This document shows positions 6,639 to 10,564 of a stretch of DNA of 52,778 bases, in pieces. The notes beneath the pieces are model-generated. The model saw only the letters and a list, made by a program, of their open reading frames with translations, searched no databases and was not told the DNA's origin. The translations under genes were made by a program, and so were the position numbers. The stretch's first letter is position 1; each line of letters starts with the position of its first letter. This DNA comes from Desulfobacteraceae bacterium (GTDB lineage Bacteria; Desulfobacterota; Desulfobulbia; Desulfobulbales; Desulfobulbaceae), in assembly GCA_011372855.1 (NCBI GenBank), contig DSAE01000231.1, positions 1 to 52,778 on the forward strand. The letters run 5' to 3'.

Positions 6639-7985
6639 ATGCATGCACCTCTGGATTCCAGCACCCCTTTGGCTGAACGCATCCGCCCCCGTTCCCTGGA
6701 GGAATTTGCCGGACAGGAGCACCTGGTCGGCCCCGGGCGGCTGCTGCATCAGCTGATTCAAACCCGCAGGCTGCCCTCTCTGCTCCTCTGGGGTCCGCCC
6801 GGCTCTGGCAAGACGACGCTGGCGACCATTCTCGCCCAGGCCGTTGACGCCCACTTTGTTTTCTTTTCCGCGGTTCTTTCCGGGGTCAAGGAAATCCGGC
6901 AGATCGTCGAGGAAGCCCGCCGCAAGCGTGAGCAGAACATTGACACCGTTCTTTTTGTCGATGAAATTCACAGGTTCAACAAAAGCCAGCAGGATGCCTT
7001 TCTCCCCCATGTTGAAAGCGGCCTGCTGACCCTGATCGGCGCAACCACCGAAAATCCGTCGTTCAACGTCATCGCCCCCCTGTTGTCGCGCTGCCAGACC
7101 CTGGTCCTGGAACCCCTCGCCCCTGAACATATCAGGTCCATTCTGCTGCGGGCCCTCCGTGATCCTGACCGCGGCCTGGGTGCATATAATTTTTCCATTG
7201 ACGATGAAGGACTTGACGCGCTGGTCCGCCATGCCGACGGGGACAGCCGGCGGGGGCTGAACTGTCTGGAGACGGCAGCCGTTCTTGCCGCTGAAGCAAG
7301 CAGGACAAGCAATAACGACCAGCCGCGCATCACCGCCGAACTGGTGGCCGAAGCGGCCCAGCACCGCCCCCTCCGGTATGACGCAGGGGGAGAGGAACAT
7401 TACAACCAGATTTCAGCCCTGCATAAAAGCCTGCGGGACAGCGACCCCGACGGAGCCGTCTACTGGCTGGCCAGAATGCTGGAAGCGGGCGAGGACCCCC
7501 TGCATATCGCCCGCCGCCTCATCCGTTTCGCTTCCGAAGACATCGGCAATGCGGATACCAACGCCCTGCACGTTTCCTTGAACTGCAGGGCGGCCTATCA
7601 TCTGCTCGGCTCCCCGGAAGGCGAGCTTGCCCTGCTGCAGGCCGCCGTCTACCTGGCCACCGCCCCCAAAAGCAATGCCCTGTACGCCGCGGACAATAAA
7701 GTCCGCCGCGATATCGCCGGAACCGGGGCACTTCCCGTTCCCCTTCACCTGCGGAACGCCCCGACCAAACTGATGAAGGACATCGGCTACGGCAGGAACT
7801 ACCAGTATGCCCATGACAACCGGGACGCCCTCGTGGACCAGGAGCACCTGCCCCCGGAACTGAAGGGCCGCACCTATTATGAACCGACAAACCGCGGATA
7901 CGAGGCGACCATCCGCGACCGCTTGATGAAATGGCGCAAAATTCTTCAACAACGGGCCAATGAATATGAACGGAAAAAATCCTGA
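6639..7985 (+). CDS. rarA: Replication-associated recombination protein A (AAA+ ATPase)
   Basis: 'RPRSLEEFAGQEHLVGPGRLL', Walker A 'GPPGSGKTTLA', Walker B 'LFVDEIHRFNKSQQDAFLPHVE', C-terminal 'RRLIRFASEDIGNAD'. Confidence 0.95.
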   Translation: MHAPLDSSTPLAERIRPRSLEEFAGQEHLVGPGRLLHQLIQTRRLPSLLLWGPPGSGKTTLATILAQAVDAHFVFFSAVLSGVKEIRQIVEEARRKREQNIDTVLFVDEIHRFNKSQQDAFLPHVESGLLTLIGATTENPSFNVIAPLLSRCQTLVLEPLAPEHIRSILLRALRDPDRGLGAYNFSIDDEGLDALVRHADGDSRRGLNCLETAAVLAAEASRTSNNDQPRITAELVAEAAQHRPLRYDAGGEEHYNQISALHKSLRDSDPDGAVYWLARMLEAGEDPLHIARRLIRFASEDIGNADTNALHVSLNCRAAYHLLGSPEGELALLQAAVYLATAPKSNALYAADNKVRRDIAGTGALPVPLHLRNAPTKLMKDIGYGRNYQYAHDNRDALVDQEHLPPELKGRTYYEPTNRGYEATIRDRLMKWRKILQQRANEYERKKS

Positions 7986-9589
7986 CACTCCCCTGAGCGG
8001 ACCCGGCACCCTGCTCCTCCTTGTTGCCATGCTGTTCGTGCTGCTTCACCCGGCTGCGGTTTTGAGCAATGAATTCATCCTGCTTTACTCCAATGACAAC
8101 CGGGGAGAGACGGAGCCCTGCGGCTGAAGCTCGAATCAACTGGGCGGTCTGTCCAGAAAGGCATATATGATAGAGCAGGTCAGGAACGAATCGGACAAAC
8201 CTGTCCTGCTGCTCGACGCCGGTGGTCTGCTCTTCGAACGGCCGATGATTCCCGCGCCCCTCCTCGAGGCCAGAAAAATACAGGCAGCCGGCATCATCAA
8301 AGCCATGGGAGCGATGCAGTATGCCGCCGTGGGAATCGCGGCCCAGGATCTTGCCGTGGGTCTCAACTTTCTGGCACAACAGGACGATGCCCCTGCTCTT
8401 CCCTGGTTGTCGGCCAACCTGGAGAGCGAGGCGGTCCCGAAGGGGGCCATTCAACCTTTCATTCTCACCCGGGTTGCCGAACTCTCCATCGCCGTAATCG
8501 GTCTTACCGATGATCAGATCAACACCGCCCCCCTGTCGGGGCCGAAGGATTTCCGGATCCGGCCCTGGCCCGACGTTCTCGCCGATACCTTGAAGAACGT
8601 CAGGGGAAAAGCCGACATGATCATCCTGCTCTCCAGTTATCCCGATGAGGTCAACCGCCGGATCGCCGAGGAGTTCGAGGAAATCAGCCTTATCATCCAG
8701 TCCGGGGCCTCCACGGGCGCCAAGGCCCTTAGGCTGTTCGGCCATGCCCTCATCACCCAGGTCAGCAGCAGGGGACAATATCTCGGCCGAATGGACATCG
8801 ACTGGAACCCGTCCTCCCGGCAGTGGGGCCAGGCGGCATTCCGGCGCCACAAGGAAGCGAGGGGCCGTCTCGACCGCATCAACTGGCGTCTGGGGCGGAT
8901 GGAAAAACGACTGGATGAGCGGGAAAGAAAGGAGAACCGGGACTACCTGCAGCTTCTGGCGGAAAAGGAGCAGGCAGCCGAGGAAATCAGCCGGCTGGAG
9001 CGGCAGGTTCGGACGGAACAGGATCAGTCTTCATCCTACAGCGGGAATTTTATCGCCCTCAAGGTATCGCTGCCGGAAGATCCGGGGGTCAGGAAGATTG
9101 TCCTGCAGACCAGGGATGCGGTGAACAGCGTCCACAAAAAAACCCTGGAGGAGGCAAAACGGACAGGAAATGTCCCGGCTTCCGGGCCGGAGTCAGCCAT
9201 GACCGGGTGGCAGGCCTGCCGTTCCTGTCATCCCGAACAGACCCTGTTCTGGCAGCAGACCAGACATGCCGGAGCCTGGCAGACCCTGGAAAAGGCCCGG
9301 CAGCAATTCAACCAGGACTGTCTTATCTTGTCATGTGACCCTGCCGACCTACGACCTGGAAACGGTCGTCAGGGACAACCTGCTGGCCGGCCTGCCCCCG
9401 GAGCTCAAGGGCGTGGGCTGTGAAGCATGCCACGGACCGGGAAAACGCCATGCGGAAAATCCGAAGGAATTCGCGCCCCGCCGGCCGGATGAATCAACCT
9501 GCCTCCAGTGCCATACCCCCGAGCATGACACCAATTTCGTCTATGAAGAGAAAGTCGGCATCATCCGCTGCCCCGCCGCCGACCACTAA
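7960..9589 (+). CDS. Candidate selenoprotein: secreted UshA-like N-terminal domain fused to a multiheme c-type cytochrome. Contains an in-frame UGA at 8125-8127 and a 1-nt frameshift near 9328; could alternatively be a pseudogene
   Basis: Reading through the UGA gives a signal peptide and FILLYSNDNRGETEPCG-[UGA]-SSNQLGGLSRKAYMIEQVRNESDKPVLLLDAGG, so 5'-nucleotidase-like N-terminal homology spans the stop in one frame. Heme motifs: CRSCH, CLICH (restored by removing one T at ~9328), CEACH, CLQCH. The start may be 7960 or 7966. Confidence 0.7.
8140..8156 (+). promoter_or_regulatory. Candidate bacterial SECIS hairpin
   Basis: CTGGGC (8140-8145) - GGTCT loop (8146-8150) - GTCCAG (8151-8156): 6-bp stem including one G-U pair, G at loop positions 1-2, loop beginning 19 nt after the last base of the UGA. 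Confidence 0.6.
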
Positions 9590-9643: not shown

Positions 9644-10564
9644 TCAAAGCCCGAAAGCCTTCTGCAGATTGGGAATGGTCTGCTTTTTGCGGCTCATCAT
9701 CCCCTCGATCCACATGGAGTTGCCCTGCAGCTTGGCGTTGAAAGCTCCCTCGATCAGGGCCGGCTCGTCGGAAACAACCATCAGATCGGTTCCTTCCTTG
9801 ACAACGTCGGTGAGCATGAGCAGGACGGAGTGACGGCCGCCGGCCTTCTTTTCCTGCATGGCCTTGTACAGGGCGTCGCGCATGGAGGCGACCTGATCCA
9901 GGGTGGCGAGTTCCAGCTGGCCGACGCCGACCTTCTTGCCTTTCATGTCGAAATCCTTGTAGTCGCGGTCCAGCAGTTCCATGGCCGGCACGCCTTCGAC
10001 GGCGCTTTTGGCCTTCAGCATTTCCATGAAAAGCGCATCGGTATCAGTAACGCCGGCGATGGATTTCAGCTCCGCCACCGCCTTTTTGTCGGCATCGGTG
10101 CAGGTGGGTGACTTGAAATTGACGGTGTCGCTGAGAATGGCAGCCATCATCATCCCGGCAACGTTCGGCTTAATGGCGACTCCTTCCAGATCATAGAGGA
10201 CCTTGAGGACCGTTCCGGTACAGCCCACCGGCATGGCCCAGAAGAAAATCGGATTGTTGGTGGTGACATCCCCGATCTTGTGATGATCGACAATGGCAAC
10301 GACCTCACCCTGGCTCAGGTTGTCCGGCGCCTGGGCAAGATCACTGTGGTCGACAAGGGCAATTTTCTTGCCGGTGGCATCCGTCAACGACTCGGGAACG
10401 GCGGCGCCGAATCGCTTCAGCACGGTTTCCGTTTCCGGATTCGGCTTGCCCTGAATACACGGGATATAATCCTCTCCCTTGGCTTTCATCAATTCCGCAT
10501 AGGCGATGGCAGCGGTAACTGAATCCGTATCAGGACTTTTGTGACCCACGACGTAAACTGGCAT
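9644..10564 (-). CDS. ppaC: Manganese-dependent inorganic pyrophosphatase (DHH family)
   Basis: 'VYVVGHKSPDTDSVTAAIAYAELM', 'ALVDHSDLAQAP', 'IVDHHKIGD', C-terminal 'SRKKQTIPNLQKAF'. Confidence 0.95.
   Translation of the reverse strand: MPVYVVGHKSPDTDSVTAAIAYAELMKAKGEDYIPCIQGKPNPETETVLKRFGAAVPESLTDATGKKIALVDHSDLAQAPDNLSQGEVVAIVDHHKIGDVTTNNPIFFWAMPVGCTGTVLKVLYDLEGVAIKPNVAGMMMAAILSDTVNFKSPTCTDADKKAVAELKSIAGVTDTDALFMEMLKAKSAVEGVPAMELLDRDYKDFDMKGKKVGVGQLELATLDQVASMRDALYKAMQEKKAGGRHSVLLMLTDVVKEGTDLMVVSDEPALIEGAFNAKLQGNSMWIEGMMSRKKQTIPNLQKAFGL

Follow-up and report, generated by a model that had tools for sequence, protein, structure and literature searches.

We propose that the plus-strand gene at positions 7960 to 9589 of the window (the whole stretch of 52,778 nucleotides analyzed here) codes for an exported selenoprotein of the NCBIfam family NF041198, in which an in-frame UGA would be read as selenocysteine (Sec) through a SECIS element and a Cys–Sec pair would likely carry out redox chemistry with a tetraheme domain, hemes 2 to 4 of which are frameshifted in the assembled copy. 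From the sequence comparisons presented below, we give this reading a probability of about 95%.

The TGA at 8125–8127 lies in plus frame 1 and, as an earlier note on this DNA had claimed, is flanked on both sides by family-typical sequence, in a frame that is open from the ATG at 7960 and continues past the TGA until the region of 9330; its translation reads ...NEFILLYSNDNRGETEPCG-*-SSNQLGGLSRKAYMIEQVRNESDKPVLLLDAGG..., as first quoted. When the TGA is taken as Sec, the product starts with a signal-peptide-like N-terminus (putatively 7960–8070, with an approximate end, judging from a hydrophobic stretch early in the translation) and goes on with ...SNDNRGETEPCGU-SSNQLGGLSRKAY..., where the Sec is the final residue of the PCGU motif, then with a UshA-like domain (8071–8820), a long helical hairpin between the two domains (8830–9040, for which DSSP assigns helices 265–290 and 300–329 of the modeled stretch) and a cytochrome c554-like heme domain (9200–9550), all on the plus strand. 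Standard ORF calling loses the N-terminus of this protein, because the listed ORF begins only at the ATG at 8167, an omission already pointed out in the earlier note. As for the genomic context, the start of the gene overlaps by 26 nt the end of an upstream rarA/mgsA-like gene (6639–7985), and a manganese-dependent inorganic pyrophosphatase gene lies downstream in convergent orientation (9644–10564). The order rarA–selenoprotein–pyrophosphatase is kept in many Desulfobulbales loci; these neighbors nevertheless tell little on function, given their housekeeping nature and the convergent orientation of the pyrophosphatase gene.

With regard to family membership, the part of the readthrough protein that precedes the frame break scores 474.8 bits against NF041198 (cut-off 275) and the part that follows it scores 86.3 bits over model positions 448–519. 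In the whole-genome search, the family was again found in two pieces (466 bits), the C-terminal multiheme part of the model being present but in another frame owing to a one-base insertion. The PCG-TGA at 8116–8127 corresponds to the PCG followed by Sec or Cys that NF041198 requires, and the NCBI name "UshA-like (seleno)protein", which the earlier note had given, is correct and designates this very family. Since NF041198 is curated and listed as a selenoprotein family, the kind is already known and the gene is a new member of it. Indeed, in the relevant passages of the sources, the UshA-like PCGU family appears with the motif CxU in lists of prokaryotic selenoproteins (PMC13188914, PMC9312934), and a COG0737 UshA-like CxU family was counted as early as the 2008 GOS survey (PMC2398784). 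No experimental proof of Sec in the UshA-like PCGU family was found in the sources consulted.

The case for Sec is first of all carried by the residues that relatives display at this column. The NF041198 gene is found over cut-off in 49 of 58 related genomes, nearly all with exactly one in-frame TGA. Among the 30 sequences with readable context (the window counted in), the position after PCG is a TGA in 26 and a Cys in 4, and in a scan of GTDB genomes, whose 80 loci overlap this first set in that some come from the same genomes, it is TGA in 20, TGC or TGT in 60 and another codon in 0. The homologs with Cys or UGA that the earlier note had called for are thereby present in 30/30 and 80/80 cases; a close relative with a non-Cys sense codon at this column was also looked for, and none was found. 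Sec forms dominate Desulfobulbales, where Desulfurivibrio has one (L053), and are further found in three remote sequences (L057, L103, and L054) that are recorded under Myxococcota, Bdellovibrionota, and Pseudomonadota and are about 25–28% identical to the query. Cys forms abound in Myxococcota, Planctomycetota, and Verrucomicrobiota. The three remote Sec forms have the GGGCGGTCTGTCC hairpin core in common with Desulfobulbales, and this shared core would reflect either one old origin or a spread of the Sec form. Separately, many proteins of Planctomycetota, Myxococcota, and Verrucomicrobiota (L058–L117) have a PCGC motif and combine a UshA-like domain with c554-like heme motifs, and in the aligned set, Pfam covers the heme part only in nearly all members.

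The hairpin CTGGGC-GGTCT-GTCCAG that had been described downstream of the TGA was recovered at exactly 8140–8156, with a 6-bp stem, a 5-nt loop and GG at loop positions 1–2; its loop starts at 8146, the 19th base past the TGA (18 nt between the UGA and the loop), also as first counted. With an MFE of −8.4 kcal/mol, it satisfies the bacterial SECIS model in the form set out in PMC13188914 (loop of 3–9 nt, stem of 4–16 bp, G in the first two loop positions, spacing of 16–37 nt and MFE <= −7.5 kcal/mol). Taken alone, the hairpin says little, because 246 of the 1778 TGA triplets of the window (14%) satisfy the same model, and scanning the window for further in-frame TGAs that have SECIS-like folds was not discriminating either, returning dozens of candidates, mostly in antisense or wrong-frame ORFs. 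The 15-nt hairpin core occurs a single time in the 2.7 Mb genome, and the pattern running from the TGA to the hairpin, when <=3 mismatches are allowed, has a single occurrence in the window vs. 0.09 expected.

More telling is the constraint observed at the RNA level. At codons +6 to +9 past the UGA, which specify Gly-Gly-Leu-Ser, the 42 Sec forms use GGC in 42/42, GGT in 39/42, and CTG in 42/42, and TCC accounts for 35/35 of the Ser codons at the SECIS Ser position; the codons flanking these four residues vary in Sec forms, and the same residues are written with many synonymous codons in 58 Cys forms. In the stem, 95.5% of pair cells are standard and 14 cells are changed on both sides, with a covariation score that none of 500 shuffles and no slid version equaled. 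At the outermost position of the stem, 18 sequences have C-G and 13 have U-A; the second position is U-A or G-C and the fifth G-U or G-C, these changes being partly inherited jointly, so that the counts are not those of independent events. In L052, several hairpin positions are altered, and by eye a 6-bp stem can still be drawn one base out of register. Being conserved in Sec forms, covarying, and relaxed in Cys forms, the hairpin at 8140–8156 is, as judged by sequence comparison, a real SECIS element. Neither Rfam SECIS_1 nor a whole-window Rfam scan gave a match, but the SECIS_1 result is uninformative, since that model matched no control genome either.

The genome also encodes the selenocysteine machinery for which the earlier note had proposed a check, with SelA at 634, SelB at 371, SelD at 374, and tRNA-Sec at 72 bits, all exceeding their cut-offs. 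In the mechanism suggested by the comparative evidence, SelB with Sec-tRNA(Sec) would bind the hairpin at 8140–8156 and deliver selenocysteine at the UGA at 8125. The selD gene of this genome (G000:C59:759-1685, L119) itself has one in-frame TGA, and the SelD of the genome is probably a selenoprotein too. In this regard, one genus of cable bacteria (g10, in which L040 is Ca. Electronema) is, as far as its genomes tell, a natural experiment, with Cys at the column where selA is absent. This genus is nested in the Sec clade and displays TGC or TGT at the column; selA gave no match in three g10 genomes, and no tRNA-Sec comparable to that of the neighbors was found in them (best 46–47 bits vs. 69–75), the Sec-form neighbors carrying both. 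One g10 copy (L008) lies at zero tree distance from L040, which comes from Candidatus Electronema aureum. Cys instead of Sec is seen in the cable-bacteria loci L008, L040, L023 (G033), and L033 (G015), and L008 retains part of the SECIS sequence (GGCGGTCTGTCCAGA) despite its Cys. Another genome (G054), which has the machinery, carries one copy with Cys (L022) and another that contains a TGA.

At the other end of the protein, PF13435 (cytochrome c554) matches both parts over its gathering score, and intact relatives harbor four nearly invariant CxxCH motifs (alignment A1). In the window copy, motif 1 is in frame, motif 2 is split by an insertion, and motifs 3–4 are in the shifted frame. The frameshift mentioned in the earlier note is real and is due to an additional T in the TT at 9328–9329, inside the second CxxCH: the sister sequence L029 (93% DNA identity, blastn) has a continuous frame that reads CLVCHVT at this motif, and the remaining aligned relatives likewise have the motif in frame. 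Past the insertion, the sequence is conserved and its open frame ends at 9589. The extra T would be an assembly error or recent damage, in a draft of 304 contigs, and the assembled copy codes for an incomplete cytochrome because hemes 2 to 4 are out of frame. There is no sign of programmed frameshifting among the aligned relatives, and since none of them shows the frameshift, nothing favors it.

These observations bear on two readings in which the gene would be damaged. According to one, the gene is decaying, its TGA being a genuine stop or a sequencing error, and the hairpin arose by chance, which would fit the presence of a one-base frameshift in the same gene and the ease with which SECIS-like hairpins turn up past TGAs in the window (14% of them). 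However, this TGA is common to dozens of related genomes across the whole order and to distant lineages, and the hairpin is under strong RNA-level constraint, as seen at synonymous sites and in covariation; we consider this reading refuted by TGA conservation and synonymous-codon constraint, and its residual probability as negligible. According to the other, the family is indeed a selenoprotein family but the window copy is a recent pseudogene, in which the insertion at 9328–9329 is biological and removes hemes 2 to 4. It is supported by the one T that the sister does not have and by the in-frame second CxxCH of other aligned relatives; the sequence past the insertion, still close to that of the sister with a frame open to the stop, and the draft state of the genome (304 contigs, one-base errors being common in drafts) speak against it, and we deem such a recent inactivation unlikely, although its chance is appreciable.

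Another set of alternatives concerns what the protein does. The AlphaFold2 model (mean pLDDT 88.8) has CD73 and UshA 5′-nucleotidases as its best solved neighbors in Foldseek (E 1e-18 to 1e-15), and the profile search also points to 5′-nucleotidases (E 4e-24), with SoxB among the matches, so that the resemblance of the protein to UshA, CD73, and SoxB in fold and profile might suggest a working nucleotidase or thiosulfohydrolase. However, of the di-metal ligands (DxH, GD, GNH, H, GH), whose equivalences derive from profile alignments and our own reading of the UshA motifs, the window protein keeps the first Asp only, the others being R, G, A/Q, S, and G. The equivalents of UshA H43, D84, N116, H117, H217, and H252 are all replaced; across 40 family members, the first Asp alone is common among ligand positions and the N116 equivalent is Asn in 0/40, distant Cys forms retaining some further ligands, e.g., GD and GH. 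Both residues of the C-G-U/C motif, which sits in the loop past the first beta strand according to the alignment and the predicted structure, are invariant. Because nearly all metal ligands are lost while CG(U/C) is invariant, a nucleotidase role is unlikely, and the window protein is probably not a nucleotidase. The NCBIfam scores, far under cut-offs, go in the same direction (UshA 38.9 of 600, SoxB 39.1 of 550); nucleotidase or SoxB activity, rejected on ligand loss, is in our view very improbable.

Because a CxU motif is fused to a heme domain, we rather infer a redox role: the mature periplasmic protein would have kept the UshA/CD73 fold and lost nearly all catalytic-metal residues, and redox chemistry at the Cys–Sec pair would send electrons to, or receive them from, the C-terminal tetraheme c554-like domain. 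The earlier note saw here a Sec in the CG-U motif of a periplasmic redox cytochrome; the Sec stands on comparative evidence, the redox role is deduced from motif and fusion, and the cytochrome is incomplete as assembled. A selenol/thiol redox site linked to the hemes would have metal binding as its main alternative. Sec is seldom retained for a structural role, and the fused heme domain suggests electron transfer, which both argue against a Cys-Gly-Sec site that is metal-binding or structural instead of a redox pair. Such a site, doubtful in our opinion yet deserving serious consideration, would be in keeping with a CxC/CxU motif that is short, ligand-like, and near the old metal site, and with the GOS survey, which places the UshA-like family with those exceptions that lack a conserved redox motif based on Cys (PMC2398784).

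On the whole, the analysis corrects a gene whose N-terminus is cut off by ordinary annotation and, compared with the published passages on the family that we could consult, adds wobble and covariation support for the SECIS, the loss of the phosphatase site, and, in a cable-bacteria genus that lacks selA, the presence of Cys in the place of Sec. Jointly, the evidence points to a selenium-dependent protein for electron transfer in the periplasm of sulfur-cycling bacteria, within a biochemically unstudied family. It is tempting to go further and to suggest, tentatively and at a little under even odds, that a metal-less metallophosphatase fold rebuilt around Cys-Gly-Sec/Cys and wired to a tetraheme domain constitutes a widespread periplasmic oxidoreductase; if so, this enzyme would use Sec in Desulfobulbales as well as in a small number of distant lineages, and Cys in Planctomycetota, Myxococcota, and Verrucomicrobiota.

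Among known systems, NF041198 (UshA_like_PCGU) is like the window protein in its full-length sequence, its PCGU motif, and its heme C-terminus, the window copy differing by the frameshift in the second heme motif. NF049981, the UshA-like (seleno)protein family 2, belongs to the same fold family and also has Sec members, with a CxxU motif according to PMC13188914, and membership in it was rejected (41.6 bits vs. a cut-off of 140). ExtKL (NF040886), which the list in PMC13188914 includes among prokaryotic selenoproteins, is a multiheme c-type cytochrome too but a different family, and it is absent from the profile matches of the window protein. The arrangement of the C-terminal heme motifs is like that of cytochrome c554 (PF13435), with the difference that the cytochrome is joined here, as one domain, to a UshA-like one. 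Finally, the UshA/CD73 nucleotidases and the SoxB thiosulfohydrolase have their N-terminal fold in common with the window protein, whereas the latter is devoid of nearly all their metal ligands and continues, past its N-terminal domain, into long helices and a heme domain.
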